Virus record (IMG/VR): IMGVR_UViG_3300050821_007408
Location: 1-41,078 of that record
Strand: one strand, 5' to 3'
From: a virus
Length of the DNA stretch: 41,078 bases
Shown: positions 8,326 through 33,508 of the stretch, piece by piece
How positions within the stretch are numbered: position 1 is the stretch's first letter
Layout: every line of letters begins with the position of its first letter
Position numbers and translations under genes: made by a program
Notes under the pieces: generated by a model
What the model was told of the DNA's origin: nothing
Database searches by the model: none
Seen by the model: only the letters and a program-made list of their open reading frames with translations

Positions 8326-8521
8326 AGAATTGAAGCTGTGCGATACGACATCCACGCCTCGCGTCGAGGCCCATTGGTGCGTCTGCGTAAAGCGGACGGA
8401 CACGATGGGACCGTGCCTCACATGGGAACAAGGATCGAACGGACGGTGCGTATATTGCGACCACGATCGCTATTGCCACCAAATGCTAAAAGCCGCACGA
8501 GGAGAAAGCTTGGATGGCTGA
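8318..8521 (+). CDS. 67-aa Cys-rich protein between terL and portal
   Basis: The 67-residue product has WCVC, a lone Cys, and CVYCDHDRYC, about six Cys and several His, suggesting a small zinc-binding fold. GGGAGGG lies upstream of the ATG inside terL. It overlaps both neighbours by 8 bases. The first residues MAEEL are also those of the portal protein, and the DNA at the two starts is nearly identical over about 15 bases, hinting at a small duplication. Role unknown. Confidence 0.6.
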   Translation: MAEELKLCDTTSTPRVEAHWCVCVKRTDTMGPCLTWEQGSNGRCVYCDHDRYCHQMLKAARGESLDG

Positions 8522-10730
8522 AGAACTCGACATACCGCGCGAGGGTGATGACGTAGCAGCTCGACCAGGCGGCGATGGAATGCCGCTGGGCAATGAGATG
8601 ACGCCTCGCATCGCGCAGTCGCAGGCCGAGCTGGGCGAAGACGGAGCGACCGAAACCACGTTCGACGATGACGCCGCGGCGACGCTTGTGTGGGAGAACT
8701 ACCAGGCGTGGGTGGGATGGCTGGATGAGAATGCGTGGCTGGCCGAATGGCAGCTGATCGACTACCTGAAGCAAAGCCCTAACTTCGATCGCAACTGGCG
8801 TGGAAGCGACAGCGGCGGAACGGCGCGCATTTCGCGGTTCAACGTGGCCAAGAACTCGAACACGATGGCGACGCAGATCAAGCGAGGCGTCTTTGCCGAT
8901 CAGACTCCGTTTCTGTTGGAGCCGCGCGGACCGCTGGCCGACGACGACGACCAGGAGATCTATATCGACGCCATCACCGAGATCTTCTCCACGCTGAGCG
9001 AACGCGCCGACCTCGAATACAACATGGGCCTATTAGTCGATTGCCAGACGCTGCAGGGCACCGGCATAGGCGACATGGGATACGAGGAGAAGGAATGCGT
9101 GTACACCACACGCAAACGAAAAAAGCAGCCGGAAACGATACAGCTCCCGGTTGGACCTCCGAAGATCGTCAACACGTGGGAGAGCGACGAGTTTGAAACT
9201 GTAACCCAGAAGGTGACAGAGACGTATCCCTACCTTGAATATCGCAAGCTGGGAACGACGCTCTATGATCCAGGCTGGCGCACACCGAACCGTCCGGAGC
9301 TGAGTGCGGGGGGAAAGATCGATGTCGATTACCTGACGCTGCAGGATCTGCAGCGACTGCGCGGCATGGATGTCTACAAAGACATACCCTCCGACGAGGA
9401 CCTAAAAAAGTTCTTTTTCGAGAATCCACTTGGTGATGCGCCGCCGGCCTCGACAACCTCCCAGAGCATGAACTCGAACTCGGCCGTCGTCTTCCATGCC
9501 GAAGGCGAACACGTACAGACCAACGTGGATCCAACTCGGCGGCCGCTCATGCGGCTGAAGTATTCGACCAGCGAGACCATCATCGAAGTGCTGTGCTACA
9601 TGGGGCGTCGCAAGACGATACGCAATGCTCCGCATGAGCTGAAGGACTTCGCGCTGGGCGTCGCCGCGAACTGGTGGAACATCGACAACAGCGGCTATGG
9701 CATGGGCATCGGTCGGCTGAACGCTGGCGATCAGCGCATGGATCAGGGCGTACTCAACGAAGTGCTGAAGATGATCGGCTACTGGACGAACGCTCCGCTC
9801 ATGTACGACAGCTCGAGCGGCAACGAGCCAACGCAAAACATCGTGATGGGGCTGGGCAATCTGTGGGGAGTGAACGTGCCTGGCGGTGACGTGCGCAAGG
9901 CCTTCGCCTATGTGCCGAAACCAGAGATCCCGCCCGAGGCATGGAAGATTTACACGCTGGGCAAAGAGGGCGGCGAAGATCTGGTGGGCGCGAACGCGAC
10001 GACCATGCAGGGCAACACCGGACCTGGATCGACCGCGCTGAAGACGGCAACAGGAGTCAACCGGCTAGGGGGCAAAGCCGATGACAATGTGGCGACACCC
10101 ATCTCGCACATCGAAGGCGTGCTGGTGCGCTGGTACCGCTTTCTGTGGTGGATCGTGCAGACCAAGATGCCGATCGCGGAGATCCGCAGAATCCTTAGCA
10201 AGAAATTTGCTGACACGATCATCAACAAGATCGATCCGGAGAGGCTGGTTAACGCTGAGTTCAACATCAAGATCCTCGCCGGCCAGAAGCTGGCGGCCAA
10301 GGCAGCGATCGCGCAACTGATTCCATTCCTGCTGCAGCTGCTGCAGCAGCCGCAGTTGATGGAATTCATGCACCAAAAAGGAAAGACGATCAACTTCGCT
10401 TCGATCGAGAAAATCTTTATGCGCGTGAGCGAGCTGCAGGGCGCGGAAGACATCATCGTGGATCTGACGCCGCAGGAGCTGCAACAGGTTCAGGCCACGA
10501 ACCCCGCTGCACAGAGAACGAAGACGGCGGCGGCGATCGAACAGTTGCGCGGACAAAACAAAATCCAGGCAATCAACGCCAAGGGTCAGGTGGATACTCA
10601 AGTCGCCGTGGTGAAGGCCGCCGCGGACAAGGCCGCAGAGCGTCTGGAGGGTTCGACGGAGTTCGAGGAAGCCGAGGGACGTTTAGAGCGCAACACGGAC
10701 ATGGGAGAGTTGCAGAATGGCCCAGTCTAA
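8514..10730 (+). CDS. Portal protein (podovirus type)
   Basis: The 738-residue product lies between terL and the capsid gene. Features fit a large podovirus-type portal: an N-terminal helical region with NSNTMATQIKRGVFADQTPF, a central wing/stem part with YGMGIGRLNAGDQRMDQGVLNE and a long helix-rich end (TNPAAQRTKTAAAIEQLRGQ) with coiled-coil character forming the barrel. It would form the dodecameric DNA gate at the capsid vertex and dock TerL. GAGGAGAAA upstream sets the start; the end overlaps the next gene by 14 bases. Confidence 0.8.
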   Translation: MAEELDIPREGDDVAARPGGDGMPLGNEMTPRIAQSQAELGEDGATETTFDDDAAATLVWENYQAWVGWLDENAWLAEWQLIDYLKQSPNFDRNWRGSDSGGTARISRFNVAKNSNTMATQIKRGVFADQTPFLLEPRGPLADDDDQEIYIDAITEIFSTLSERADLEYNMGLLVDCQTLQGTGIGDMGYEEKECVYTTRKRKKQPETIQLPVGPPKIVNTWESDEFETVTQKVTETYPYLEYRKLGTTLYDPGWRTPNRPELSAGGKIDVDYLTLQDLQRLRGMDVYKDIPSDEDLKKFFFENPLGDAPPASTTSQSMNSNSAVVFHAEGEHVQTNVDPTRRPLMRLKYSTSETIIEVLCYMGRRKTIRNAPHELKDFALGVAANWWNIDNSGYGMGIGRLNAGDQRMDQGVLNEVLKMIGYWTNAPLMYDSSSGNEPTQNIVMGLGNLWGVNVPGGDVRKAFAYVPKPEIPPEAWKIYTLGKEGGEDLVGANATTMQGNTGPGSTALKTATGVNRLGGKADDNVATPISHIEGVLVRWYRFLWWIVQTKMPIAEIRRILSKKFADTIINKIDPERLVNAEFNIKILAGQKLAAKAAIAQLIPFLLQLLQQPQLMEFMHQKGKTINFASIEKIFMRVSELQGAEDIIVDLTPQELQQVQATNPAAQRTKTAAAIEQLRGQNKIQAINAKGQVDTQVAVVKAAADKAAERLEGSTEFEEAEGRLERNTDMGELQNGPV

Positions 10731-11950: not shown

Positions 11951-13213
11951 ATGCGTCAGACACTGACGTACCGGATGTGGAAGCGAAAGAAGCAATGGGT
12001 GAGCGGGACGAGCAGGCAGTTCCGCCCAATCGGGATGCGAACCGGGACTCAGAACGGGATCGCTGCATTTTTGTTCAAATACATTCTGTGGCCTTTGCTG
12101 CAGCTGCTGATCGCCTTTGCGTCGGCGCTTATGGCAACCGGAGCCACAGCGATGGCGATGGGAGCGCAGGCAGCGCGCGCTTCGGCGGTAGCGGAGGGTG
12201 GAGCAACGCAAGCCGCTCAGACCTCCGCCAACATGCCGCAGGCGCGTCTGACGGTTTATTACAACCGCGTCTTCATGCAGTGGCTGTACGCCAAAACCAA
12301 CAAGCTGTTGATGTGTACCCACATGGATCTGCCCGAAAAGAGCGGACAGACCTGGCGCAACTTCATGTCGATTCCGCTGGGACCGGACACCACCCAGCAG
12401 ACCGAGGGCACGCCTGGACCTCCGGAGCAGATCAACGTCAACTTCAAGGACATCGTGGTCGGGCAGTGGGCGAATTTCAATACCATTTCCGACTTTGCCG
12501 CGCTGACCTCGATCTCGGACGATCTGGTCGAGAACAGGCGCATCATGGCCTATCAGCTCGCGCTGACGATCGACGACCTCATCATGTTCCAGATGGACTT
12601 TCTGCGCACGATGGATACGCGGACGGCCAATCAGGACGCGACCACCACGCCCTATGCGTTCACCAAGAACATCATCGAGCAGATGCCGGGTTCGCTCGAA
12701 GGTGCCGAGGTGCCGCAGATGAAGGATGGCTTCTACAACGGAAGCATTCATCCCTTCTTTGTCTCCGACTTGATGCTTGACGACTCCAATAACTCCATCG
12801 TTGACATCTGGAAGCACACCGACGCGGGCCAGTTGAAGCTGGAACCGCTGGATGGTGATGACGGCGAGGCTCCGGTGCGCACGCTCGAGCTGTTCGGCTG
12901 CCACTGGAGAAAGAGCACCAACCAGACCCAGACCGCAAACTGGCAGAGTTCCGGCGAGACCGGGATCAGCACCTACCTTGCCGGCATGGATGGCATGGTG
13001 TTCATTCAGTTCCCTCACGGCAAACTGACCAAGCCCGGCCATAAATGGCAGAATCTCGATCTGTGGGCTGAGAAGTTCACAGCGCGAACCGCCTATGACG
13101 CCAACCAGCTCATCCAGGCGGGAACCGGATACAACTGCGTGCTGGGCATCGGGCCACCGCCCGACATCACCAGTCGTATGCGGATCGCGATCGCCGTTCC
13201 GATGACGACATAA
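11951..13213 (+). CDS. Major capsid protein, N4-gp56-like, with hydrophobic N-terminal extension
   Basis: From about residue 99 the 420-residue protein follows the N4-gp56 major capsid family: LTVYYNRVFMQWLYAKTNKL, then the GQTWRNFMSIPLG/TEGTPGP region, INVNFKDIVVGQWANFNTISDF and a long helix with AYQLALTIDDLIMFQMDF. It would build the HK97-fold shell. The unusual part is residues 1-98: a very basic start (KRKK) and a strong hydrophobic span (about residues 37-60) followed by an Ala-rich linker. GAGGGAG seven bases before ATG 11951 supports this start; in-frame Met61 and Met68 have no ribosome site. A 9-bp hairpin follows the gene. Confidence 0.8.
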   Translation: MRQTLTYRMWKRKKQWVSGTSRQFRPIGMRTGTQNGIAAFLFKYILWPLLQLLIAFASALMATGATAMAMGAQAARASAVAEGGATQAAQTSANMPQARLTVYYNRVFMQWLYAKTNKLLMCTHMDLPEKSGQTWRNFMSIPLGPDTTQQTEGTPGPPEQINVNFKDIVVGQWANFNTISDFAALTSISDDLVENRRIMAYQLALTIDDLIMFQMDFLRTMDTRTANQDATTTPYAFTKNIIEQMPGSLEGAEVPQMKDGFYNGSIHPFFVSDLMLDDSNNSIVDIWKHTDAGQLKLEPLDGDDGEAPVRTLELFGCHWRKSTNQTQTANWQSSGETGISTYLAGMDGMVFIQFPHGKLTKPGHKWQNLDLWAEKFTARTAYDANQLIQAGTGYNCVLGIGPPPDITSRMRIAIAVPMTT

Positions 13214-19803: not shown

Positions 19804-20283
19804 ATGACGAGTCTCCCGGTGTATGAGTTCGACGGCTATACGTTTCGCCCCGCGACTCCAGACGATCAGCCTTTGGCGCGGCTGTGGAACCGGATGGACC
19901 CGGATCACAAATGGGAGATGCAATATCCGGACTACTGGATCGAACAAAACAACCAGGTGAACAGCTATGTGCTGAAAGACGCGATCGGCATCCTTTTTTT
20001 CGTGAAGTCGATCCGGCACATGGGCAATGAGATCGAGATCTCGCTGCAGTTCGATCGAGAGTGCGGCATGGTCTCGAAGGGAAGAGTGATGCGGGGGTTG
20101 GAAGTGGGCTTCGCGTGGCTGAAGGTGGCGCTGCCCATGAACGGTTTCAAGGCACTCTATTTCGTGAGCAAGAATCAGGACCTGATACTGTTCACGGAAA
20201 AGAGGCTGGGCTTTGTGAAAGACGGGATGCGGGAGATCTACAGGCTGAAGGACACCGAGACCGAAACCAGACAGGCTTCATAG
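19804..20283 (+). CDS. GNAT-like acetyltransferase-fold protein
   Basis: The 159-residue product begins YEFDGYTFRPATPDDQPLARLW, the usual GNAT N-terminal strand-helix, then a central IEISLQFDRE strand, VSKGRVMRGLEVGFAWLK helix and ends LGFVKDGMREIYRL, the typical GNAT C-terminal strand. The acetyl-CoA R/Q-x-x-G-x-G/A loop is only poorly matched (KGRVMRGL), so catalysis is uncertain. T7 gp13, an internal virion protein, has a GNAT-like fold, and the neighbours here are ejection-type genes, so it may be structural. Confidence 0.6.
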   Translation: MTSLPVYEFDGYTFRPATPDDQPLARLWNRMDPDHKWEMQYPDYWIEQNNQVNSYVLKDAIGILFFVKSIRHMGNEIEISLQFDRECGMVSKGRVMRGLEVGFAWLKVALPMNGFKALYFVSKNQDLILFTEKRLGFVKDGMREIYRLKDTETETRQAS

Positions 20284-20293
20284 AGGAGGCACG

Positions 20294-20557
20294 ATGGCAG
20301 GAAAGTGGATTCAAAAAGCGACTGCGAAGATGAAGAAAAAAGGCACACTGGGTAAGTTTGGCAAAGCCACGCCGGCGAAGATCGCGGCGGGCAAGAGAGC
20401 GGGCGGCGTCAGAAAAAAGGAAGCCGTCTTTGCGCAGAACATGAAGGGCATCGCGAGGCACAAAGACCACGCGGGCAGCGGCGGCAGGCGCGCAGCCAAG
20501 GGCCACGATGCCATCGGCGACCATCCCGGCTATTCCATGATGTCGAAGAAGAGATAG
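20294..20557 (+). CDS. Small very basic protein
   Basis: The 87-residue product is roughly one third Lys/Arg with almost no acidic residues (KATAKMKKKGTLGKFGKATP). It has a Gly/His-rich end (HAGSGGRRAAKGHDAIGDHPG). GGAGG lies upstream of the ATG. It should bind DNA or other polyanions and may be packaged, as basic internal head proteins are. It starts the ejection-protein block. Confidence 0.65.
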   Translation: MAGKWIQKATAKMKKKGTLGKFGKATPAKIAAGKRAGGVRKKEAVFAQNMKGIARHKDHAGSGGRRAAKGHDAIGDHPGYSMMSKKR

Positions 20558-20566
20558 GAGACGCCG

Positions 20567-21184
20567 ATGTCGGGACCGACAGCGCAACAAACCGAGCTTG
20601 GCGACGCCCAGCTCGCGGCCTACCAGCAGGCATCCGATTTAACCAAGCAGCAGTACGCCAATCAGCAGGCCATCTACGGGCCGATGACGCAGCAGTTTCA
20701 ATCGATCTTCGCGAAAGGCCCCGGACAGAAGGGCTTCACCGGAGAAGAGGAATCAGACCTGAACGCGCAGGCCGTCGAAGGCACCGCCGAAAATTACGGC
20801 AACGCCGCGCGTGCTGTAGGCGAGACCACAGCGGCCAGAGGAGGCGGCACCAACCCGCTGCCTACCGGAGCGGACGAGGCGGTCCAGGGGAATATCGCCA
20901 CCAGCGCAGCTCAGGAGGAATCGAGACAGGAGAGCCAGATCGAAGCGGCCGACTACTCGCAGGGCCACAGTGACTGGGAGAATGCGGGAGCGGGACTGGA
21001 AACGATCGCGGCCGGCGACAACCCGCTGGGCTACGAATCGAACGCGACCAGCGCCGGAACGGCAGCCGGGAACACTGCCGGCGAGATCGCCAGCGAAGAC
21101 AATAGCTGGCTCAATGCGACGATCGGAGCTGTTGGAGGTGCCGCAGGCATGGCATCGGGCGCAAGCATCAACAAGTGGGGATAG
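20567..21184 (+). CDS. Internal virion (ejection) protein candidate
   Basis: The 205-residue product is rich in Gln, Ala and Gly, mostly helical (QLAAYQQASDLTKQQYANQQ), with a glycine-zipper-like hydrophobic end (GAVGGAAGMASGAS). Such small Ala/Gly-rich proteins before two large ones match the three-protein ejection set of short-tailed phages, which form a channel across the envelope. AGGAG upstream supports the start. Confidence 0.55.
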   Translation: MSGPTAQQTELGDAQLAAYQQASDLTKQQYANQQAIYGPMTQQFQSIFAKGPGQKGFTGEEESDLNAQAVEGTAENYGNAARAVGETTAARGGGTNPLPTGADEAVQGNIATSAAQEESRQESQIEAADYSQGHSDWENAGAGLETIAAGDNPLGYESNATSAGTAAGNTAGEIASEDNSWLNATIGAVGGAAGMASGASINKWG

Positions 21185-21193
21185 GGAGAGACT

Positions 21194-23128
21194 ATGGGCG
21201 GAACGACATCAGGAGCGCAGGCGGCGAGTCAAATGGAGGCGGCGGGAGCGCCCACAGCCGGTGGATGGGATGCGGCCGCAACGCCTCCACCAACGGCACC
21301 ACAGACCGCGCCAGCGGCCTCACAGACGCCCGGTGGCTCGCAGCCTTCCCAATCCCCTACCGCGACGCCATCGGCAACGCCTGGAGGCCCTGCACCGGGT
21401 TCCACAACTGCACCGCCAGCCCCGCAACCGGTGGTTGTGACCTCGCAGAAGCCTCCGGGGATTTTGGGAGTTGTGGATTCGATCGCCGATGCTCTGGTAG
21501 GTAAGACGAAGCCGGAGATGGGTACCGACGCCCAAGGCAACCAGTACGTGAAACAGCAGACGATGAGCCGTGGCCAGCAGTGGGTACGGATCGGCGCTGG
21601 CTTGGTGGGCGATGCAGCCAAGGGATTCGCGGCGGGAAAGGGACGCAACCCCGGAGCTGCAGCAGCGGCGGGTTTCGCGGGGGGAGAACAGCAGTCGAAA
21701 GATGCGGCCGCGCAGACGCCCGCGCTGCAGAAACAGATCCTCGCCAATGCCAACTATCAGAAGCTGCGCATGGACGCGGCAGAGCAGTCGTGGCACCTGA
21801 CCGCGATGCAGCATGAAGCGACCCAGCACGATGTGGCGTTCGCGCAGGGTCAGGAAGACAGGTTGATGAAGGTGGACGGCGCAACGCTGCTGGGAACCGC
21901 TGCGAACCCCAACGACATCGACAAGATCCTGAAGGTCGAGCCGAACGTGATGAAGGCCATGATTCAGGATCACCAGATCGAGATCCTGCCCCACTACAAC
22001 CCGGACGGCACCAGTGCCGGAATCCGCGTCTTCAAAATGCCGGACAACTACCGCAAGACGATCGAGCCGGCCGGGACTGTCTTCCACACCTTCGACAGCG
22101 CGACGGGCCAGTATGTCGAACACAAGAGCAGCGAACCTCTGACCGCTGGCGAAGTAGACGACTACGAGACCGCAGCCGGCAACGCCGCGCAGAAGTTCAA
22201 GCTGGACCAGGCGAGCATCGCAGAGAAGGCTGCGCAGACCGCAAAGGCGAAGGCAGACGCGGGAGCAACCACGGCGAAGCTGCCCGGTGAGATCTCAAAG
22301 GGCAGAGCAGAGACGGCGAGAGACTATGGCGAAGCCAACGCCGCGAACGCGAGAGCGGCGAAGGACCAAACCGATTCCGGTACCGGCCCCAAGGGAGAGG
22401 CGTTAGTCGATTCGATCGGAAGCGGCAGGATCGCTCTTGATCGGCTGGGATACCTTGCCGCGCGCAACCCGGATCTGCTGGCCGCAGTGCAGCTGAAATA
22501 TCCGGACTTCGACAGCTCGAAAGCGGCACAGTACCCGGCCGTTTACAAAGAGTTCACCAGCACGAAGAAAGGCACTGCTGGCGGCGCGTTGAATGCAGGC
22601 GCAACGGCTTTGAAACATTTGAAGGAGCTGGACGCGCTCAACACCGTAAAGAGCCACATCCCCGGAACGTCGGACTATGTGAAGTATCAGAACAAAGCCG
22701 ACACGCTTGCAACGGAGCTGGCATCGTTCTACGGTGACACCACCATCCCCGCGATCGCGTCGATCAAGAGCACGCTGACAACTCAGGTTCCAGGCGGAAG
22801 AGCTGGCGCGATCAGGACGCAGGCGCAATCGATGGGCGACAAGTTCAACAGCTTCGAGCAGCAGTGGCAGAACGCCGCGCCCAGCAAAGCCTACGAGGCA
22901 CCGATGCCCGGTATCGACAAGGAAGCTACCGAGGCGCGCGCGGCGCTCGATCCGCGATTTCACGCACGCATGGTGGCCGAGCAACAGGGACCGCCAGCTC
23001 TACCACCGAACGCGCCGCCGCCAGCTCAGGGCATGAGCCGTGTCTGGGCTCCCGGATCTCCGACGTGGAAAGACGTACCCACGAATCAGGTTCCTAAAAA
23101 CGTTCCCGGTCTGGTTGTGCGTCAGTGA
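21194..23128 (+). CDS. Internal virion (ejection) protein candidate
   Basis: The 644-residue product has a disordered Pro/Thr/Ala-rich first 80 residues, a short region with GLVGDAAKGFAAGKGRNPGAA, and a long alpha-helical body with many Ala, Lys and Glu (QASIAEKAAQTAKAKADAGA). No enzyme motif is visible. GGGAGAG upstream sets ATG 21194. Its stop overlaps the next start (GTGA). By position and composition it is the second ejection protein. Confidence 0.6.
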   Translation: MGGTTSGAQAASQMEAAGAPTAGGWDAAATPPPTAPQTAPAASQTPGGSQPSQSPTATPSATPGGPAPGSTTAPPAPQPVVVTSQKPPGILGVVDSIADALVGKTKPEMGTDAQGNQYVKQQTMSRGQQWVRIGAGLVGDAAKGFAAGKGRNPGAAAAAGFAGGEQQSKDAAAQTPALQKQILANANYQKLRMDAAEQSWHLTAMQHEATQHDVAFAQGQEDRLMKVDGATLLGTAANPNDIDKILKVEPNVMKAMIQDHQIEILPHYNPDGTSAGIRVFKMPDNYRKTIEPAGTVFHTFDSATGQYVEHKSSEPLTAGEVDDYETAAGNAAQKFKLDQASIAEKAAQTAKAKADAGATTAKLPGEISKGRAETARDYGEANAANARAAKDQTDSGTGPKGEALVDSIGSGRIALDRLGYLAARNPDLLAAVQLKYPDFDSSKAAQYPAVYKEFTSTKKGTAGGALNAGATALKHLKELDALNTVKSHIPGTSDYVKYQNKADTLATELASFYGDTTIPAIASIKSTLTTQVPGGRAGAIRTQAQSMGDKFNSFEQQWQNAAPSKAYEAPMPGIDKEATEARAALDPRFHARMVAEQQGPPALPPNAPPPAQGMSRVWAPGSPTWKDVPTNQVPKNVPGLVVRQ

Positions 23129-26094
23129 GCGCCGCCGCCGATCCCCTAGCCAGCATCGGCGTACCTGTAGGTGCGCCACCGCCAGCAAGCGGCGACCCAC
23201 TGGCAGGACTGGGAGCACCGGTAGGCGCGGCGAACTCCCCTCCCGCACCCGCGCCTACCGCGCCATCCAGTACGCCGCCACCCTCGACTCCCGCTCCAGA
23301 TCCGTCCATGTTTGGGCGGATCAAAGACTACATCTCCCAGACGCGCGCGCAGAATGCAGCAGCCTTCGATCAACACCCGATCCTGAAACAGATCAACGAT
23401 ATTGTGAGCACTCCGCAAAACATGAATCTGGGAGCGATTCGCGGAGCGGCACTCACAGCAGGAGGGCTGGCCCACATCGCGCGCAAGGTAACGGGCACGA
23501 CAGAATCGACAAGCGACGCGGAGAAGGGCGTACAGAGTTTCGGTGAAGGCGGCGACACCGGAGCGGAAGAAGCGGGCAAATGGATCGAGGCAGCAGGCGA
23601 GTTCATGCTGGGCGACGCCGCGCTTAAGGGCTTGAGCTACGTTGACAAACTCCGCCACATCACGCCCATCCTCAAGCTCGCAGAGAAATCGCCGATCCTG
23701 GCGAAGGCGCTGAACGCAGCGATGCAGCAGGGTTTGATTGGCGGCGCACAAGGATACGTAAAGTCGGGTGGAGATGCGACGACCGCAGCCGAAGACGCGG
23801 CGATGGCGGGAGGGACCGGCGCGTTATTGGAAGGTGGAACCGGCGTCGTCAAGAAACTCATCGGGCGATCGCGGCCAGCGGTTGAGAACATCGGCGGCGA
23901 GAACGTGCAGACACTCGCCTCGCAGCGGCCGGGAACCGGACCGCGCGGCAGCGTGACCGCGAACGAGGTTCCCAAGGTGGCAGCAGCGCAGCAGGCAGCA
24001 GCTCCGCGCGTCTTCCAGAATCTTGCGCAGCGCGCGACCCACGATGCGCTCGAGGAGGCCAACCAGGGGCGCGTTGTGGCGGGACAAATCACCGACCCCG
24101 CGCGGATGTTGCCAGCACCCGAAGGCGCTCGGCCTTATCCCTTCACCATCGAAGGACCAGGCGCAACTTCCGAGGACGTGGCCGGTGGAACGGAGCCACG
24201 CAAACGACAGATCGGAACGCAGTACGTCGCCGGAAAAGGCTCAGGCACAGCGCCGAAAACAGAACCGTACAACGAAGGCGCGTTCAAGTACGGCGATAAC
24301 GAACCGTTGCCACCCGTCAACGATCAGGAGCCGTTTCAAGGTCCGACGCACAAAGAGCCAGTGTTTCAATACCTCACCGATCTGAAGCCAGGGCAGGAGG
24401 CAGGAAGCACGAGAGTGACGGGTGGAGGAGATCTCGTCGCAGCAGACCCGGAGACGGCACAGACTCACCTGAGCCGGTTGAACGATCTGGTTGACCATCC
24501 GCCAGAAGGCGCGACACCTGGCCAGATGTCAGCGATCGAGGACGCGCGCGACAGTCTGCAAGAGCAGATGGATGTGTATCACAGCTATCAACGGACACTA
24601 CCGAACTTCAATCCGATCGACTCCGCACGCGCAGCCGAAGGTGTGGGACATTTCGGCGATGCCGCCGACCAGCTGCAGAACGCGGCCCAGCCGATCTATC
24701 AGAAGTTCGACGAGGCCACCGATGGACAGTTCAGCGATCTCAACCGCGCGAGGACCGCAGCCGGCAAGCGCGGCGACTTCACCGCGAAGCACGATTATGA
24801 AAACCAGATCGACCATCTGATCGACGAGACGCCGGGGATCTCGCGACCGGACCGTCTGCAGGCGACGAAGCTGTGGAACAAGTCGAAGGTGCTGGATGGA
24901 CTGAATGACGTGGTGAACCACGCCGCCAACGTTGACGACAAGTACTCCTCGCAGGTTGCCGGTGGCCGCGTGTTGAGTGGCGTGAGAATGCAGAACGGCC
25001 TTCAGCAGCTCATCAAGCGCTACGGTCAGGACCGCCTGGAGAGCGTGATCGGCAAAGACGGCATGGAGAACATGACCCGCATCGCGGACCTGCTGAATAC
25101 GCCGAAGGCCTCGCAGGGCTTGAAGGGCATGAGCATGAGCGTGCTGCACAACATCGCGCACGGCAAGGTGGGAGGATTCGCCGGCGCGTATCTCGGCCAC
25201 CAGATGGGCGGCTATGAGGGAGCGTTAGCGGGAGCGTATGCCGGCGCGAAGGCCGAACGATGGATGCTGCAGATGGCAGCGACCAGCCCACGCATCGGCA
25301 AGCTGCTGGATTACGCGGTAAGAAACGGCGTCTCACCGAAGACGGCGGCAGCGGGGATCTCGGCCGCGATCATTCAGGAGAACCCGCCAGAGAAACAGGA
25401 GGAGCCGAAGCAAAGCGACGAAAAGAAGCCGCTCACCATGCTGGAAGGCGAGGCCGACGACAGCGCACCCGCGAACAACACAAACGTAGACTCGAGCGCA
25501 ACGCCGCAGGCACAGGCCGACGCTGCGATCGAGAACACGCCAGCACCCGTACAGCAGGCCTACCACGCCGTAGACCCAGCAGTCGTGCAGGGCCAGCCGC
25601 TCACCGGCCGCGGCGGCAACGCAGCCGATGCCAGCGTGGACCAGGGCGCGGGCAACAACACGATCGAGATCAACGATCCGGCCAGCTTCCAACGCCACCC
25701 GGCATCGACGACGGCGCACGAGCTTGTCCATACCTGGCAGAACAATCTGCCGCCATCGGTGCAGGCAAAGATCCCTGCGGATGCCGAAGACATGAGCGCG
25801 TTCGACATCAGCGACGCCGACAAACTACGGGCGCAAGGCCACACGCTGGCGACCATCCCACGCGAGAAAGCGGCGACGATCGTACAGAAGTACATCGAAG
25901 ATCCGAAGAAAAACGCGAATCTGAAACCGTGGATTCAGGACATGGGCAACACTGCGCTCTCGAGCACATTGCCGACAGCGCCGAACGCCACAAGGTTGAA
26001 CACGACGCCACGCGCACCCGGAGTGCCAGGCGCGGACGTTGCAGGAATGGAAGCGTACTACACCCCAAGTCACAAAACGAAAGGTAAAAAATGA
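23125..26094 (+). CDS. Large internal virion protein with C-terminal HExxH zincin motif
   Basis: The 989-residue product starts at GTG 23125 overlapping the previous stop. Domains: Pro-rich disordered start (to about residue 55), a helical hydrophobic segment near residues 90-200, a central charged region, a Gly-rich membrane-like stretch around 670-710 (GGFAGAYLGHQMGGYEGALA), and at residues 865-869 HELVH in the context TTAHELVHTWQNN, the signature of DUF4157-like zinc metallopeptidases. There is no obvious third ligand. A peptidase in an ejected virion protein could open peptidoglycan-linked proteins or process other virion proteins (inference). Its end overlaps tad2 by ATGA. Confidence 0.65.
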   Translation: MSAAADPLASIGVPVGAPPPASGDPLAGLGAPVGAANSPPAPAPTAPSSTPPPSTPAPDPSMFGRIKDYISQTRAQNAAAFDQHPILKQINDIVSTPQNMNLGAIRGAALTAGGLAHIARKVTGTTESTSDAEKGVQSFGEGGDTGAEEAGKWIEAAGEFMLGDAALKGLSYVDKLRHITPILKLAEKSPILAKALNAAMQQGLIGGAQGYVKSGGDATTAAEDAAMAGGTGALLEGGTGVVKKLIGRSRPAVENIGGENVQTLASQRPGTGPRGSVTANEVPKVAAAQQAAAPRVFQNLAQRATHDALEEANQGRVVAGQITDPARMLPAPEGARPYPFTIEGPGATSEDVAGGTEPRKRQIGTQYVAGKGSGTAPKTEPYNEGAFKYGDNEPLPPVNDQEPFQGPTHKEPVFQYLTDLKPGQEAGSTRVTGGGDLVAADPETAQTHLSRLNDLVDHPPEGATPGQMSAIEDARDSLQEQMDVYHSYQRTLPNFNPIDSARAAEGVGHFGDAADQLQNAAQPIYQKFDEATDGQFSDLNRARTAAGKRGDFTAKHDYENQIDHLIDETPGISRPDRLQATKLWNKSKVLDGLNDVVNHAANVDDKYSSQVAGGRVLSGVRMQNGLQQLIKRYGQDRLESVIGKDGMENMTRIADLLNTPKASQGLKGMSMSVLHNIAHGKVGGFAGAYLGHQMGGYEGALAGAYAGAKAERWMLQMAATSPRIGKLLDYAVRNGVSPKTAAAGISAAIIQENPPEKQEEPKQSDEKKPLTMLEGEADDSAPANNTNVDSSATPQAQADAAIENTPAPVQQAYHAVDPAVVQGQPLTGRGGNAADASVDQGAGNNTIEINDPASFQRHPASTTAHELVHTWQNNLPPSVQAKIPADAEDMSAFDISDADKLRAQGHTLATIPREKAATIVQKYIEDPKKNANLKPWIQDMGNTALSSTLPTAPNATRLNTTPRAPGVPGADVAGMEAYYTPSHKTKGKK

Positions 26095-26351
26095 ATTTCG
26101 GACAAGCAATCGAAGCGTTGAAGAACGGCTATAAAGTGGCCCGCAGCGGCTGGAACGGAGTAGGGATGTATCTGTACCACGTTCCACCGGGGGAATATCC
26201 CGCACGCACCGCGATCGCGAAAGCGGAGTGGGGCGAAGAGGGCTTGGTTCCCTACCAGGCTTACATCGCCATGAAGACCGTACAGGGAACCGTGGTGCCG
26301 TGGCTGGCCTCACAGACCGATATGCTGGCCGAAGATTGGAAGGTGCTATGA
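26091..26351 (+). CDS. tad2: Tad2-family (DUF2829) anti-Thoeris protein
   Basis: The 86-residue product matches DUF2829/Tad2: MNFGQAIEALKNGYKVARSG at the start, WNGVGMYLYHVPPG, a central YQAYIAMKTVQGTVVPWLAS and the closing QTDMLAEDWKVL, all hallmark segments of the family. Phage Tad2 proteins form multimers that sequester the signalling cyclic ADP-ribose isomer made by Thoeris, and some bind CBASS cyclic dinucleotides (established for family members). Here the activity is inferred. The start overlaps the stop of the ejection-protein gene, and the stop overlaps the next gene, so it is co-translated with virion proteins. Confidence 0.88.
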   Translation: MNFGQAIEALKNGYKVARSGWNGVGMYLYHVPPGEYPARTAIAKAEWGEEGLVPYQAYIAMKTVQGTVVPWLASQTDMLAEDWKVL

Positions 26352-26569
26352 GAGCGGAAGACATCGACAACTGGTTTCAATATCACCAGCCGACGCAGAC
26401 GCAGCTCACCAAATACTTCGACTTGCGCAACTCGGCCAAGGCCTTCGCGGAGCTGTTCGACAAGAGCGTGCCGGACTGCGCGGACAAGACGGCCGCAATG
26501 CGTCATCTGCGCGAAACCGTGATGGCGATGAATCTGGCGATCGCGTGCAACCCCGAGGAGAAGGTATGA
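26348..26569 (+). CDS. acb2: Acb2/Tad1-hairpin-family nucleotide sponge
   Basis: The 73-residue product has the family pattern: FQYHQPTQTQLTKYFDLRN, AKAFAELFDKSVPD, and ETVMAMNLAIACNPEE, close to the F-x-Y-H-x-P, Y-x-x-I/L-R, VP-D and V-M-x-N-x-A-I-A positions of Acb2-type proteins. Acb2 sequesters CBASS cyclic oligonucleotides and some members the Thoeris signal; here this is inferred from sequence. The usual ANAAIAR end is altered to MNLAIAC. ATGA overlaps both neighbours. Direct linkage to tad2 makes a two-gene anti-defence pair. Confidence 0.78.
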   Translation: MRAEDIDNWFQYHQPTQTQLTKYFDLRNSAKAFAELFDKSVPDCADKTAAMRHLRETVMAMNLAIACNPEEKV

Positions 26570-27636
26570 GCCGGAAATCTATTACGCCAGCGGTACACAT
26601 CGCACGCCGTCACCAGAGCGCGCCGCGAGCTCACCCGGCCGAGGCCGAGATCCGCAAGGCCGCCGAGGAGATCGACGCCGGCCGCTACGTGCCCGACACC
26701 CGCGCGAGTGACGAGCAGGCGCTGGATGGGCTTGGCCTGGCGCTGGGCATGGGCATCAACGGCGTGGCGGTAGGCGATGCGCCGAGCTTCGACGACTGGC
26801 ACAAGGAAGAACAGGCCACCCGGCAGATGAACGAGCTGGGCCGACACCCGCGGGTGCTGGAGGCGATGGCGCGAATGGAGCGGGAGATCGAAGACGTGAA
26901 GACGCCGGAGCAGGAGCTGGAGTTGCGCTGGAGAATTCACGAGCTGCTGTCGGCCGAGCAGGAGCGCAACAAGTGGAAGGGACAGGAGCGATGGGAGGGC
27001 CGCGAGAACGAAGAGATGCGGCGCGGCGAGGTGCTGAGTCCCTGGCAGTTCCACGAGCGGCTGTGCGTGGCGCTGGGACGCAGGGATCGGGTACTCCTGA
27101 AAGACGACCGCATCGTGAAGATGAGCAGCACCGGAAAGAGCGGCCTACTTGCGCTGGTGATACGCAACCCGATGTGGAACGGCCAGACCGCCATCCAGCA
27201 CGACTACGCCCAGGTGAAGGCCGGCGAGATGAAGCAAGCGGCCGAGGGAGAGCTGGTGAAGGCGAAGCGGCTGCGCAAGGCGAAGCACAACCCCGAAGCC
27301 GACAGGAGCTTTCACCTGGCCGGCGACATGATCCAGACCGCGACCGAGATCCTGCTCGAGCGCGAGGCCTACGAGACCGAGGTTCCGGAGTTCCTGCGAG
27401 TAGGCACCCTGCAGGCCCCGCTGGGTACCGAGTGGATGATTATGGGTTTCGACGAGTTCGGCGTGCCCACGTCGGCAAAGTATGTGGGCTGGCGAACGGC
27501 GCTGATGACGATGATTCGCGCGCGGGCGATCACCGAGGAAGAGGCGCACCGAGCGTTTCCGCTAGGCACCGGGCCGGCGGCGGACTGGTACCAGCAGCAG
27601 CTTTTCATGTGGCGGAACGGAGAGACGGTGAACTAA
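26566..27636 (+). CDS. Hypothetical protein in the anti-defence cassette
   Basis: The 356-residue product is highly charged and mostly helical, with segments such as EEIDAGRYVPDTRASDEQ, LHELSAEQER-type helices (true text: HELLSAEQERNKWKGQERWE), MSSTGKSGLLALVIRNPMWN and VPEFLRVGTLQAPLGTEW. There is no transmembrane span, Cys cluster or signal peptide. TGKSGL around residue 190 is Walker-like but without the full P-loop spacing. Start ATG 26566 overlaps acb2 by ATGA with GAGGAGAAGG upstream; an earlier ATG at 26545 is less likely. Coupling to tad2 and acb2 makes it a candidate new anti-defence or host-takeover factor. Confidence 0.65.
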   Translation: MSRKSITPAVHIARRHQSAPRAHPAEAEIRKAAEEIDAGRYVPDTRASDEQALDGLGLALGMGINGVAVGDAPSFDDWHKEEQATRQMNELGRHPRVLEAMARMEREIEDVKTPEQELELRWRIHELLSAEQERNKWKGQERWEGRENEEMRRGEVLSPWQFHERLCVALGRRDRVLLKDDRIVKMSSTGKSGLLALVIRNPMWNGQTAIQHDYAQVKAGEMKQAAEGELVKAKRLRKAKHNPEADRSFHLAGDMIQTATEILLEREAYETEVPEFLRVGTLQAPLGTEWMIMGFDEFGVPTSAKYVGWRTALMTMIRARAITEEEAHRAFPLGTGPAADWYQQQLFMWRNGETVN

Positions 27637-27887
27637 TGGCATCCTTCGAGGAAGAAGAGAGAAAGATTCAGGCGCGCGCGGATAAGGCGAGAGACGAGCA
27701 GAGAGAGGCGCTGTGGCGGACACAGTGCCTGCCGAGGTTTTCCAACGCAGGGCTGACCCCGCAGCAGATCGAGGTAGCGAAGAGCACATTTTGCGCCGGG
27801 TTCGATGCTGGATGGGAGAGCCACCAGGCGTTTTTGATGAATGAATTCATTCGTGAGAATCAGAAACAAAAGGTGCATCTGGCATGA
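27636..27887 (+). CDS. 83-aa charged helical protein
   Basis: It shares one base with the preceding stop (TAATG). The 83-residue product is a long charged helix (ASFEEEERKIQARADKARDE) followed by LTPQQIEVAKSTFCAGFDAG and a short amphipathic end. No family is recognised. It may partner the 356-aa protein upstream or the hydrolase candidate downstream, with which it overlaps by ATGA. Confidence 0.6.
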   Translation: MASFEEEERKIQARADKARDEQREALWRTQCLPRFSNAGLTPQQIEVAKSTFCAGFDAGWESHQAFLMNEFIRENQKQKVHLA

Positions 27888-28327
27888 CACAGAAAGACGT
27901 TGACCGCGTGATGCTGGTGCGCTACGCCGCGTTCGAGGCTGGGCCGCGCGGGAGCCTCGAAGAGATGAAGGCCATCTGCTACTGTCTGCGCAATCGCGTG
28001 CGCGCGGGGTGGGGCGAGTGGATGGATGTGATCGAGACTGCCGACGAACACCGCGCCAACGAACCGAACGAGCTGATACGCATCGACCACAACAGCCGCG
28101 CCTACCAGAGATTGCTGCACGAGGTGGACGATATCTATTTCGGCCACAGCTCCAACTACGGCGACGGCCCGACGCTCGAAGACACTCTGTGCGAGAAACA
28201 GCGCCCCTGCTTCTACTGGATGTATCTCAACCGGCCGATCCGGCAATGGTTCAAGGACACCATCGCCACCGACAAACAAAACCACCCCAGCAACGCGACG
28301 ATGGGGCTTATGATGTTTTTTGAATAA
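27884..28327 (+). CDS. SleB-like cell-wall hydrolase (endolysin) candidate
   Basis: The 147-residue product begins VMLVRYAAFEAGPRGSLEEM and continues KAICYCLRNRVRAGWGEWMD, a pattern like the SleB/hydrolase_2 fold (acidic residue in A-x-x-E-A, then a helix ending in N-R-V-R). The rest has FYWMYLNRPIRQWFKDT and HPSNATMGLMMFF, where SleB proteins have HxxG-type aromatic ends. If right, it would be the lytic transglycosylase/endolysin. No holin with an obvious span lies next to it, and no signal peptide is present. Other assignments are possible. Confidence 0.45.
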   Translation: MTQKDVDRVMLVRYAAFEAGPRGSLEEMKAICYCLRNRVRAGWGEWMDVIETADEHRANEPNELIRIDHNSRAYQRLLHEVDDIYFGHSSNYGDGPTLEDTLCEKQRPCFYWMYLNRPIRQWFKDTIATDKQNHPSNATMGLMMFFE

Positions 28328-28335
28328 CCCTCCCC

Positions 28336-29109
28336 ATGCCCCTATCTCCTCAGATCACATTAACCGCGACGCTGCAAGATGTCAGCGGCAACACGGCCGG
28401 AACCACAGCAAGCCCTGCGGTGCTGCGAGTCGCGCTGTGCGGGTTCGGGCTGACGCTGCCTTGCATCCCAGGAACCTCGAACGTCGTGCAGGTAGGCCCC
28501 GAAGATTTTTATGACGACGGGAGCGGCATCAGCATCAAGCTGTGGGGAAACGATGTCATCTTTCCCGCTGGCACCTACTACGCCATCACACTGCTTGACG
28601 GCGACGGCAACATTCTGCAGTGCGGCGCGTACCGGTTTACCGGCGCACAGACCATCGACCTGAGTAACGCTCCGCAGATTTATCCGATACCGCCAACTCC
28701 CGCACCAGGCATCCCTGTACTGACAAACCCACCGGGAGCCGCACTCCAGACGATCGACGGATCAATCACGATCGACGGCAACCTGATTGTGACGGGAAGC
28801 ATTAACGGCGGCGGGTTGGTGATTGTTCCGATCGTTGCAGGAGTGGCCGAGTTCGACGGAACCCACGGAAGCAGCCAGAGCCTCACTCTGACCGAGAATG
28901 TAACTTCGACCGCTGCAAATTTCGTCGCCGGCGCAACAATCATGACGTTGATCAAACAGGACGGCACCGGAGGTTGGACGATGACCTGGCCGGCGAACTT
29001 CATCAACGTTCCGGCGATCAACCCCGCTCCGAATGGAGCGACCGCGCAGATATGGATGAAGGACGAAGCTGCAAACTACTATCCCTTTGGAGGCGCAACA
29101 TGGAGCTGA
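28336..29109 (+). CDS. Fibre/tailspike-type protein
   Basis: The 257-residue product starts PLSPQITLTATLQDVSGNTA and includes NGxxLxVTGSIN-type repeats (GNLIVTGSINGGGLVIVP) and Gly/Thr-rich beta strands typical of phage fibre shafts. It has no clear ribosome site; the start lies 8 bases after the hydrolase gene, so translation is probably coupled. Position among adsorption genes fits a fibre or collar protein. It overlaps the signal-peptide protein at 29100. Confidence 0.55.
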   Translation: MPLSPQITLTATLQDVSGNTAGTTASPAVLRVALCGFGLTLPCIPGTSNVVQVGPEDFYDDGSGISIKLWGNDVIFPAGTYYAITLLDGDGNILQCGAYRFTGAQTIDLSNAPQIYPIPPTPAPGIPVLTNPPGAALQTIDGSITIDGNLIVTGSINGGGLVIVPIVAGVAEFDGTHGSSQSLTLTENVTSTAANFVAGATIMTLIKQDGTGGWTMTWPANFINVPAINPAPNGATAQIWMKDEAANYYPFGGATWS

Positions 29110-29414
29110 GAAAGAAAAACTTTTGGGCAATCGCATTTTTAACAATCGCAACCTCGTTATTTGCGCAGCCTAGCGCAGCAGTATCTTCCAACTCGAAATC
29201 GCCCGCAACCGTAACCCATCTCACGGCTGCCGAACAAGCGAAACTCGATCACGCGCGCGCGATTGCGGCCACGTCAGAGGATGTGAGGCCAGTACAAGCG
29301 GAGATCGACGCCATCGTAAAGGCCCACCCCGGATATCACTGGGAAGATCACGGAATTCTCAGCTACAACAGCGGTTTGGTGGCGAATACCAAAAAGGGAG
29401 GTAAGCCGCAGTGA
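29100..29414 (+). CDS. Secreted 104-aa protein with signal peptide
   Basis: GGAGG precedes ATG 29100. The N-terminus is MELRKKNFWAIAFLTIAT followed by SLFAQPSAA, a basic region, a hydrophobic core and a signal-peptidase-like A-Q boundary: a Sec signal peptide. The mature part (about 80 residues) is helical with DHARAIAATSEDVRPV and ends GGKPQ. It would go to the envelope or periplasm. In the fibre gene cluster this is unusual; a superinfection-exclusion or lysis accessory role is possible. Confidence 0.6.
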   Translation: MELRKKNFWAIAFLTIATSLFAQPSAAVSSNSKSPATVTHLTAAEQAKLDHARAIAATSEDVRPVQAEIDAIVKAHPGYHWEDHGILSYNSGLVANTKKGGKPQ

Positions 29415-31906
29415 GAAAGAAAAACCTTTGGCTTGCCCTGGCGCTACTGAGCGTCCAATGCTTCGCACAGCAGACGATCGCGCCATTCAAGACGCAGCAG
29501 GCGAACACGGTTTTCTACGTCAACATGGGCGCGGGCACGACGCTGACCACGATTCAGAAGACCGTCACCGCCGCGTGCGCGTATTCGACCGCGACGGTGG
29601 TAGACATCCTGCCTGGCTCGAATCCCAGCGACACGATCGCAGGCCTAACCAGCGCATGTACCAACACAAGGATCTTCGACCAGCGAGTCAGTCCCGCCGA
29701 CAATTACTCCTGCACGTCGGGCGGCTGCACGCTTGTGCCATATTCGGGACCAACCTCGGCAGTCACCGATAACATCCTGATCAATTCGCCATCGACCGGA
29801 CTCTATTTTGCGAACACGGATTCGATCGGCTTGCTGGTTGTGGGCGGGTTCCCCGAACTCCTCGCAGGCCAATTGGGTATCCCCACAGGCAATCGGCATA
29901 TCAACGCGATCGGGAGCGCGTCTCTGGCCGACATGCTCAGCTGCAATACACCCGGAACCGGCAACTGCACCCAGAACGGCACATGGCCGCTTACTTTTCC
30001 TTTGGGAGTGACCAGTAATTCCAAGGCACTGTTAGAGGCTGCGTACAACGATGTTTCCAATATCGGGGGCGCCCCCAACGCAGCCCAAAGCAGCTATTAC
30101 GGAGGGGGACTCAAGGCGTGGATGCTGGAGTTCGGCATTCCCGACAGCCAGAAACTTGCCGCCAACTCCTCGATCTGCACGACGACGGGAACGTGGACCA
30201 CGGTTAGCGCTGTGCCCGGAACGTCATCCGGCGTATTTCCGGCCGGAACTCTCCAGACCCTCACCCCTGGCGCGACGATCACATGCACCACGCGCAACGC
30301 CACCGATGCCGGTTTCATCGGATACAAATCCACCGGCAGCACCACGGCGACGATGACGATCAGCGCGGTCAACGCCGGCGTCACCTACAACATCGTGGAC
30401 CCGTACACCGGCAGCACGACGCTCAATCAAAACGCGCCGTACACGTCATTTTGGGGAGGCACGGCGAACCTCTACGCGGTTGGACAAGCGGGCATGGCAG
30501 GCGGATATACGACCATCACGTTGACCGCTGCGAACAATTCGAGCGATCCGGTAATCGTGTCTGGCGTGTACTTTCTTTCCCCATCGAGCAGCCTGCAGAA
30601 TTACCCCGCAGTTGAAATGATGCTCGAATCCCGCGCGGGATGTAACGGAGCCTGCAGCAGCGTAGCCGGCCCGCAGCACGATGACGCCAACACGAATGTG
30701 ATGCGAGGGATACAGATCGCGACTGTGAACGAGCTGCGATCGAATGGCCTCAACATCAGCTACTACGATCCGAACGCGACCCCACCGGGATACAACTCAT
30801 CCGATCCGGCACAAACGGCGGACGGCACTCACCCCAACGGCATCAGCTCGCCCTTCCTCGCGAATGTCGGGTTTGTGAATCTTAACTCCGCAGCAACGAC
30901 ACAGGATCACTTTCTGCCAGTGGTGGCCGGCAACAACGTAACCGTGCCGACGACGCCGAATTTTCTGAATGCGCCATCGGGGATTTTAACCGCGGTTCAG
31001 AATATCTTCCCCGTAGTCGTGGGCGGCGGAAATAGTTTCAATGGAATCGGAATCCAGGGCGGAACAGGACTAACGAGCTATCTAGGAACCGTCGCGCAAC
31101 AACAACAGGCCAGCACGCTCAACACGTTTTTCAACGGCGCAAACTGGCCTTACACGCAAAATGGGATCTTGGCAGCTTTCCGCATTTTAAACAGTTCGGG
31201 ATCTGATTCCGCTTTTCAGGTTAGCGTATGTCCCACTGGCACGGCGGGATCAAATAGCAACATGGATACAATCTGCGTTGCTCAGTACACGAAGTCGGGA
31301 ACGAGCAACAACCAAACCTGGTTCAATTCGCGAGCCGGCAATCCGACCTTTCCCACAAACGCCGCCCTGTGCCTCAACCCTTCCTGCAATTGGATGACGG
31401 ATTTTAGCGGGAATGAAACAGCCGCCAGCGTTACGACGCCCAGCGCTTCGGTGCAGAATACGACCGTGGCCGGCGACGTGACCACTTTCGACAACACCAC
31501 CGGGCATCTGCACGACAGCGGCATCCCCTCGAGCACACTGGCATCCACCGCACTCACGAATTCATGGCCAGCGGCGCAGGATTTTTCGACGATCGCCGCG
31601 ACTGTATCAATCAACAATGAGCCGGGATTGCAGATTGTCTCCGTCGCCGGCTGCGCGATCGCCGCAGGAACCATCGGCACGTTTTGCGCGGCGACCATCA
31701 CAATGTCCACGCCAGAGCCGGATACGGGCTACGAAGTTTCGGGGTGTTCGTTCACCGAAGGGACCGGATCGACCGGGCCATTGAGCATGGGGAGCGTCTT
31801 CAACAAGACCACCACAACTTTCGAGGTAAGCCTTGTAGCGCCAACCACGGCATCCGCCAACACCGCCAGCGCCGGCGCGATCATCTGTATGGTGACTCAC
31901 CCATAA
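29411..31906 (+). CDS. Tail-fibre/adhesin with signal peptide and SGNH-esterase-like region
   Basis: The 831-residue product starts at GTG 29411 (GGGAGG upstream; stop-start overlap). It has a Sec-like signal (MRKKNLWLALALLSVQ CFAQQT). The body is beta-rich with many Thr, Asn and Ser. About residues 460-500 contain SYYDPN and later DGTHPNG, resembling the C-terminal D-x-x-H block of SGNH/GDSL esterases; a GDS-type nucleophile is not clear (SASLADML at about residue 170 is the best candidate). The end has TTGHLHDSG, common in fibre tips. It probably deacetylates surface glycan during adsorption (inference). Confidence 0.6.
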   Translation: MRKKNLWLALALLSVQCFAQQTIAPFKTQQANTVFYVNMGAGTTLTTIQKTVTAACAYSTATVVDILPGSNPSDTIAGLTSACTNTRIFDQRVSPADNYSCTSGGCTLVPYSGPTSAVTDNILINSPSTGLYFANTDSIGLLVVGGFPELLAGQLGIPTGNRHINAIGSASLADMLSCNTPGTGNCTQNGTWPLTFPLGVTSNSKALLEAAYNDVSNIGGAPNAAQSSYYGGGLKAWMLEFGIPDSQKLAANSSICTTTGTWTTVSAVPGTSSGVFPAGTLQTLTPGATITCTTRNATDAGFIGYKSTGSTTATMTISAVNAGVTYNIVDPYTGSTTLNQNAPYTSFWGGTANLYAVGQAGMAGGYTTITLTAANNSSDPVIVSGVYFLSPSSSLQNYPAVEMMLESRAGCNGACSSVAGPQHDDANTNVMRGIQIATVNELRSNGLNISYYDPNATPPGYNSSDPAQTADGTHPNGISSPFLANVGFVNLNSAATTQDHFLPVVAGNNVTVPTTPNFLNAPSGILTAVQNIFPVVVGGGNSFNGIGIQGGTGLTSYLGTVAQQQQASTLNTFFNGANWPYTQNGILAAFRILNSSGSDSAFQVSVCPTGTAGSNSNMDTICVAQYTKSGTSNNQTWFNSRAGNPTFPTNAALCLNPSCNWMTDFSGNETAASVTTPSASVQNTTVAGDVTTFDNTTGHLHDSGIPSSTLASTALTNSWPAAQDFSTIAATVSINNEPGLQIVSVAGCAIAAGTIGTFCAATITMSTPEPDTGYEVSGCSFTEGTGSTGPLSMGSVFNKTTTTFEVSLVAPTTASANTASAGAIICMVTHP

Positions 31907-31908
31907 CG

Positions 31909-32004
31909 CTAGAAGCTGTAGGGACGCCACTCGTCCAGCTCATCATCGCTGGCCCAGCCGAGGCGTTTCCGATAGGCCTTCCATAGTCTCTTGAGCAGCT
32001 TCAT
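31909..32004 (-). CDS. 31-aa basic peptide ORF, convergent
   Basis: The minus-strand ORF MKLLKRLWKAYRKRLGWASD plus DELDEWRPYSF is basic at the start and acidic/aromatic at the end. AGGAT lies 11 bases upstream, a weak ribosome site. It occupies the gap between the fibre gene and the promoter at 32022, ending 3 bases from the fibre stop. Length and composition fit a real micro-ORF but could be chance. Confidence 0.35.
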   Translation of the reverse strand: MKLLKRLWKAYRKRLGWASDDELDEWRPYSF

Positions 32005-32089: not shown

Positions 32090-33508
32090 ATGGCAAGGAT
32101 TCCCAAGGAAGAACGTCACGCCCAGGTGGACGCGATCGTAGAAGCCAGCAGCGACAACATGCACATCATCGAGATGCGCATCGAGAATATCAAGCGGGTG
32201 AAGCTGGCCCACATCAAGCCCAAAAATAATCTAATCGTCGTCGCCGGCAAGAACGGCGAAGGTAAAAGCTCCGTCCTCGACTCGATGAGCTGGGCGCTGA
32301 CAGGAACCTCGACGGTGCCGCGCTACCCCATCCGCAGGGGCCAGCGCACCGGCAGCGTGAAGGTGGACATCGGCGACTTTGTTGTCACGCGGTACTTCAC
32401 TCACGTGGACGAGGAGAAGAGTGCCGAGGGGCGGACCTACATGTCGAAGCTGGTAGTCACCGGCAAGCGCGGCGAGGCCTTTCCCAGCCCACAGGTGCTA
32501 CTCGACAAACTTCTGGGCAAGATCAGCTTTGACCCGATGGCCTTCATGCGAAAAGACCCAGATGCCCAAGTCGAGGAGCTGCGCAGCCTCGTCACGTTCG
32601 ACGTGGATATCGACGCGCTCGAGGCCGAGCAGAAAGCCGACTATGACGCGCGGCGCGAGGCTGGCCGGGTGGCCGAGTCGCTGAAGAATCGAGTTGCTGC
32701 GATGCCCGTTCCTGCCCCGGATCTGCCACTGGAAGCGATCGACGTGGCCGCGTTGACCTTGAAGCTGCAGAACGCGGCCCAGCACAACAGCGGAGTGGCT
32801 GCACAGCAGCAACGGAAGACCCTACTACTGGAGCGGGCTGAGCGCGTAGCGGCGACGGCGAAGAAGATGCGCGAAGACGCCCATGCTTTGTTGAACGAGG
32901 CCGCAAAACTGGATGGTCTACACGTGGATCGGGCAGAGGGTGTAATCCGGGATGATGGCGAACTTCAGAAGCTACTGGCCGAGGCCCAGGCGATGACGAT
33001 TGGCGAGCCGATCGACACTGCCGACGTTGCGGCCGAGCTGACCAAAGGGAACGAGACCAACGCGGCCATCCAGCGCGCGGCCAACTATCGCCAGCTGGTG
33101 AAGGACCGGGAGGCCGCAGATGCGGCATGGACGGAGATCGATGCGCGGATGAAGAAGCGGGAGGCCGAGCGGGAGGCCGCGATCGCGCGGGCGAAGATGC
33201 CGATCGAAAAACTCTCGATCGCAAACGGCGAGGTAGTCTACGACGGGTTCCCCCTCAACCAGGCGTCGAACGCCGCGCAGATCCGCGTGAGCATGGCGAT
33301 CGGCATGGCCACCAACCCCAAGCTGCGCGTACTGCGCATCAGCGACGGGAGCCTGCTGGACGACGACAGCCTGCAGCTCGTGGCCGACGAGGCCAAGGCG
33401 AAGGACTTTCAGGTGTGGATCGAGCGCGTGGAGACAGACGGTAAGGTGAGCGTGGTGATGGAGGACGGCAACGCGACGGGCGAGGATGTGGAGGTTGAGA
33501 AAAAATGA
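32090..33508 (+). CDS. SMC/RecF-like ABC-type ATPase
   Basis: The 472-residue product has LIVVAGKNGEGKSSVLDSMS (Walker A GKNGEGKS at residues 53-60) as in the head of RecF/SbcC/Rad50-type proteins, a coiled-coil-like central part (about residues 180-380, e.g. LLLERAERVAATAKKMREDA) and a C-terminal LRVLRISDGSLLDDDSLQLV segment acting as Walker B/D-loop. It is smaller than Rad50/SbcC. It would tether or repair DNA ends, or help recombination. AAAGGAG upstream of ATG. A tail of very small genes follows. Confidence 0.75.
   Translation: MARIPKEERHAQVDAIVEASSDNMHIIEMRIENIKRVKLAHIKPKNNLIVVAGKNGEGKSSVLDSMSWALTGTSTVPRYPIRRGQRTGSVKVDIGDFVVTRYFTHVDEEKSAEGRTYMSKLVVTGKRGEAFPSPQVLLDKLLGKISFDPMAFMRKDPDAQVEELRSLVTFDVDIDALEAEQKADYDARREAGRVAESLKNRVAAMPVPAPDLPLEAIDVAALTLKLQNAAQHNSGVAAQQQRKTLLLERAERVAATAKKMREDAHALLNEAAKLDGLHVDRAEGVIRDDGELQKLLAEAQAMTIGEPIDTADVAAELTKGNETNAAIQRAANYRQLVKDREAADAAWTEIDARMKKREAEREAAIARAKMPIEKLSIANGEVVYDGFPLNQASNAAQIRVSMAIGMATNPKLRVLRISDGSLLDDDSLQLVADEAKAKDFQVWIERVETDGKVSVVMEDGNATGEDVEVEKK

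Follow-up and report, generated by a model that had tools for sequence, protein, structure and literature searches.

The IMG/VR virus record IMGVR_UViG_3300050821_007408, analyzed here as a window of 41,078 bases, carries two adjacent small genes, tad2 and acb2, which most likely encode late-made nucleotide sponges of known families, placed in a variable slot of the late operon and buffering the signals of the Thoeris and CBASS defenses. The analysis establishes to which families the two genes belong, the predicted fold of their products, their synteny, that each has come and gone independently of the other, and that both are under purifying selection; their ligands, their late timing and the protection they would confer are inferred. 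Both protein families are already known, and it is the setting that is useful: in a small phage group, probably of acidobacteria, one junction of the virion operon can be compared in its different states (empty, with tad2, with acb2, with both, with unknown small genes). Position thus singles out a few candidate anti-defense genes, and the question of whether sponges against capsid-triggered defenses are made late can be put directly.

The first gene, tad2 (26091-26351, + strand), encodes an 86-aa Tad2-like predicted sponge protein. Its product matches PF11195 with 98.1 bits (cut-off 25; E 4e-28) over profile positions 1-72 of 73, and a sequence search of the PDB returned ModTad2 (E 7e-25) as well as HgmTad2/AcrIIA7, SptTad2 and SPO1 Tad2. 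The AF2 model (pLDDT 95.5) has as its top Foldseek match the ModTad2-HisADPR entry 9eib (E 1.8e-10), and in the VIA comparison it reaches Z scores of 11.8-13.0 to ten Tad2 entries, the next unrelated chain standing at 5.8. A whole-domain profile match above the curated cut-off and a predicted Tad2 fold thus place the product in the Tad2 family, confirming the identity proposed in the first-pass annotation. The full-length fold is shared with ModTad2 from a Myroides odoratus prophage (PDB 8v3e, and 9eib with His-ADPR) and with SPO1 Tad2 (8smf), at 42-52% identity in structural alignments; unlike these two genes, the window tad2 sits in a late structural operon beside acb2. Residues R18, W21, W71, S74, D77, D82 and W83 are invariant across divergent relatives. 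Tad2 proteins form tetramers that sequester the Thoeris nucleotide signal, and their ligands vary among relatives (gcADPR, His-ADPR, cyclic dinucleotides), so that homology does not fix the ligand of the window protein. In the PDB alignment the window Tad2, like ModTad2 and SPO1 Tad2, has no long insertion such as is found in HgmTad2/AcrIIA7, so that an ADPR-type ligand would be likelier than a cyclic dinucleotide.

The second gene, acb2 (26348-26569, + strand), encodes a 73-aa Acb2-like predicted sponge protein; a mechanical open reading frame call begins at an upstream GTG (26228), and the starts of the relatives correspond to the ATG at 26348. The product matches PF24729 (Acb2/Tad1 hairpin) with 43 bits (cut-off 27) over profile positions 2-58 of 58. 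Its AF2 model (pLDDT 93.2) consists of a short helix (H3-9) and a helical hairpin (H17-40 and H45-67), the architecture of Acb2 of phage T4 (Vs.4, PDB 7uq2) and of the solved Acb2 structures 8h2x and 8h2j, although the sequence is only 13-21% identical to the solved Acb2 chains. The structural match of the model is specific in its ranking and weak in its score: T4 Vs.4 with cGAMP occupies Foldseek PDB ranks 1-3 (prob 0.84-0.95, E 0.3-0.7), and the VIA Z scores of 6.0-6.3 are level with those of unrelated helical hairpins (8h2x, Z 6.3, rmsd 2.6 over 60 residues). In sequence searches of the PDB, phmmer with the single product found nothing at E 0.1 and an 8-row profile gave no relevant match, and only a profile of 49 sequences reached the family, ranking an Acb2 homologue first (E 0.005), followed by Tad1 chains and Vs.4. 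The hairpin motif is preserved across divergent relatives, and the agreement of profile, predicted fold and motif supports the Acb2 assignment made earlier. The window protein belongs to a distinct environmental subgroup with the motif DNWFxYH...ADKTAAMRHLRETVMAMN, outside of which T4 and the solved Acb2 proteins fall; PADLOC and NCBIfam searches gave no useful match. Acb2 proteins are homohexamers that bind cyclic di- and trinucleotides and thereby block CBASS. Tad1, a longer protein (solved chains of 123-138 aa) with an N-terminal domain ahead of the shared hairpin, was ruled out as the identity of the product, as its 73 aa make up the hairpin only.

By gene order, both genes lie in the predicted late region. 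They share the + strand with TerL (6628-8325, phrog_38), a portal/head-tail gene (8514-10730, phrog_332) and the major head protein (11951-13213, phrog_1357), and this strand also carries large genes downstream of the major head protein, up to about 31.9 kb. The pair is flanked by a large virion-type gene on one side and by the lysis/tail-fiber region on the other. A scan of the + strand from 20000 to 32000, based on the sigma-70 consensus only, found no sigma-70-like promoter or terminator-like site.

The upstream border of the slot is a gene for a 989-aa protein (23125-26094, + strand), kept in six relatives in which the slot is in view. The first-pass annotation had tad2 overlapping an ejection-protein gene; the overlap is there, and the protein is probably of the internal virion or ejection type, as suggested by gene order and by a homologue in a cultured phage. 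Its residues 632-974 align at 40% identity with gp25 of Tunturiibacter phage Tunturi_3, encoded downstream of the tail genes and ahead of an endolysin; the ORF itself has no family match above cut-off, and a weak glycine-zipper match falls below it. The last part of the protein (25600-26094) contains an HELVH motif, which may mark a zinc peptidase; residues 836-974 share 73% identity with Tunturi_3 gp25 and are absent from most close relatives. The downstream border is a conserved 356-aa protein (26566-27636, + strand). Five of six close relatives encode it at 87-90% identity and the other one at 75%, and its C-terminus matches a gene of the Tunturi_3 structural region (38% identity, 89 aa).

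We compared the window with seven relatives at the equivalent junction, between the large late gene and the 356-aa gene. Both genes are present in three of these eight genomes, acb2 alone in one, tad2 alone in two and neither in two. In the window, tad2 is followed by acb2; L009 has tad2, a C-terminally extended acb2 and a gene for a CxxC protein, and L004 has tad2, acb2 and a further 63-aa gene. L003 carries acb2 only, L011 tad2 only and L012 tad2 with the CxxC gene, while the slot of L013 is empty and that of the distant L019 holds two other small genes. The absent gene was not found elsewhere in the single-gene and empty contigs (L019 excepted), which may be incomplete. Single-gene and empty states at one and the same junction indicate that tad2 and acb2 were gained or lost independently. 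The extended Acb2 of L009 (11260-11661) has 62 additional C-terminal residues without a Pfam match, and the CxxC protein, which follows acb2 in L009 (11658-11852) and tad2 in L012 (10366-10536), has no family match.

Purifying selection is strong on tad2 (omega 0.06-0.20) and less strong on acb2 (0.10-0.30). Together with profile scores well above the cut-offs and conservation in independent IMG/VR contigs, this indicates that the two genes are not chance open reading frames. At dS 0.9-2.6, the tad2 alleles have diverged further than the 356-aa border gene (0.40-0.52), suggesting that they are exchanged or replaced more quickly; this is not so for acb2 (0.24-0.53 within the group).

The side-by-side arrangement with ATGA overlaps that had been described is seen at all three + strand junctions of the slot: between the stop of the 989-aa gene and the start of tad2 (26091-26094), between tad2 and acb2 (26348-26351), and between the stop of acb2 and the start of the 356-aa gene (26566-26569). 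A special translational coupling to the virion protein had been read from these overlaps. However, 12 of the 37 gene junctions examined across the window have 4-base overlaps, so that the ATGA overlap is no evidence of such a link. Across the related genomes, 16 of 19 slot junctions have 4-base overlaps, compared with 9 of the 34 junctions elsewhere in the window (Fisher p 1e-4, a descriptive value only, as the genomes are related). Almost all slot genes start with ATGA, their first bases being the stop of the preceding gene. The genes can be called fused into the late operon, as they had been, but in the window this does not extend to a protein fusion.

Late placement of anti-defense genes had been regarded as unexpected, a view that our comparison does not bear out, since a late-region location of acb2 or tad2 is itself common. 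One terminase family is matched by 11 of 82 large neighbors of acb2, others match further terminase and portal families, and in L005 acb2 abuts TerL. In Gordonia phage UBSmoodge, unrelated to the window phage, gp25 (annotated as hypothetical, acb2-like by tblastn) overlaps the end of the portal gene in the late operon, there without an adjoining tad2. An Alcaligenes phage has tad2 two genes ahead of the small terminase. Counter-examples are Tunturiibacter phage Tunturi_1, with an acb2-like gene among small genes with RNase H, and an uncultured myovirus with tad2 near the DNA polymerase. Close acb2 homologues, 67-77% identical, stand upstream of terminase-type genes in the unrelated phages L005, L006 and L008.

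In the most likely mechanism, tad2 and acb2 are plugged consecutively into a variable slot leading from the large virion-type gene to a conserved late gene, and are probably transcribed and translated along with the virion proteins. Tad2 would bind ADP-ribose-type Thoeris signals (His-ADPR or gcADPR isomers), and Acb2 the cyclic di- and trinucleotides that CBASS produces, which would hold off the effectors of both systems until lysis. Known triggers include the major capsid protein, which activates staphylococcal Thoeris, and a prohead protease, which activates a CBASS cyclase (PMC11312562); phages with acb2 deleted acquire capsid mutations (PMC10419184). Late synthesis of the sponges makes sense because capsid and prohead-protease products trigger several such sensors; made with the virion proteins, the sponges would appear as the signals do.

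An earlier description of Thoeris and CBASS inhibitors paired in one cassette stands as to the families, whereas a fixed cassette is contradicted by the single-gene states in L003, L011 and L012. That tad2 and acb2 form one co-selected dual-inhibitor unit, retained since hosts carry both Thoeris and CBASS, is unlikely, even though three members of the phage group have the two genes side by side, overlapping by ATGA or GTGA. The best 80 Tad2 loci include one locus of this group with acb2 and a single locus outside it, L186, with a weak Acb2-like hairpin ORF directly 5' of tad2 (profile E 1.4e-4); this ORF lacks a Pfam match, and L186 was rejected as a second acb2-tad2 pair. In IMG/VR, tad2 lies within 4 kb of acb2 at 2 of 75 Acb2 loci, both from the window's phage group, and on none of the 39 other acb2 contigs. 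Among phage and plasmid records, none covered both parts of a concatenated Tad2+Acb2 query, which would miss distant acb2 genes. The pairing thus appears confined to the window's small phage group, and even there each gene is found without the other in sister genomes and the two differ in dS.

It is very improbable that the folds have been kept while the role drifted to another small-molecule or structural function. Such a drift would be compatible with the low score of the Acb2 structural match and with the missing HgmTad2-type insertion; the invariant Tad2 residues, the preserved Acb2 hairpin motif, the purifying selection and a patchy presence typical of accessory counter-defense genes all argue against it. 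Packaging of the two proteins into the virion, which had also been raised, or their ejection with the upstream protein, either of which would let them act as soon as the next infection begins, is exceedingly improbable. The genes do lie directly 3' of a probable ejection-type protein gene, but we found nothing else in support: no virion-protein fusion is present in the window, the slot may be empty or take unrelated small genes, and characterized sponges of the two families are described as acting on signals within the infected cell (PMC12043709).

The reading as late-made sponges in a variable slot invites a more tentative extension. The junction after the large virion gene may conceivably be a dedicated counter-defense slot of this phage group, in which genes starting at ATGA come and go while the operon stays intact, late expression fitting the supply of sponges to capsid-triggered defenses; we regard this as possible but doubtful. 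If it were true, the CxxC protein, the 63-aa protein and the extended Acb2 would be undiscovered anti-defense proteins. Inhibitors of different defenses also stand close together in anti-defense clusters such as the Acr loci and the T-even dmd/61.2 region (PMC10286901, PMC7648647), as in the window; unlike these clusters, the slot described here is embedded in a virion operon, and its genes were gained singly and independently.

The window phage comes from soil, and an acidobacterial host is plausible, as Tunturi_3 is a phage of Tunturiibacter (Acidobacteriota). Tunturi_3 is the only database phage that matches the large late protein, a 1095-aa protein and the portal, and its late genes are largely collinear with the window; in Tunturi_3, an endolysin comes straight after the counterpart of the large late protein, and the slot genes are absent. 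Bacterial and archaeal genomes gave no match when searched with the large late protein. The Acb2 profile found one locus, on a short contig assigned to a Methanoregulaceae MAG, which was discarded as a basis for a host.

Downstream of the 356-aa gene, the junctions flanking an 84-aa gene (27636-27887) are variable as well, with extra small genes in several relatives (window 27636-28327; L003, L004, L009, L011 and L012), and further slots may lie there. The 147-aa protein encoded at 27884-28327 is weakly similar (27%, E 4e-4) to a Tunturi_3 gene annotated as endolysin in the equivalent place, and its gene is probably a lysis gene. Farther along, at 32090-33508, the window encodes an SbcC/RecF-like ATPase (phrog_1499, E 6e-88) that is kept across the phage group.
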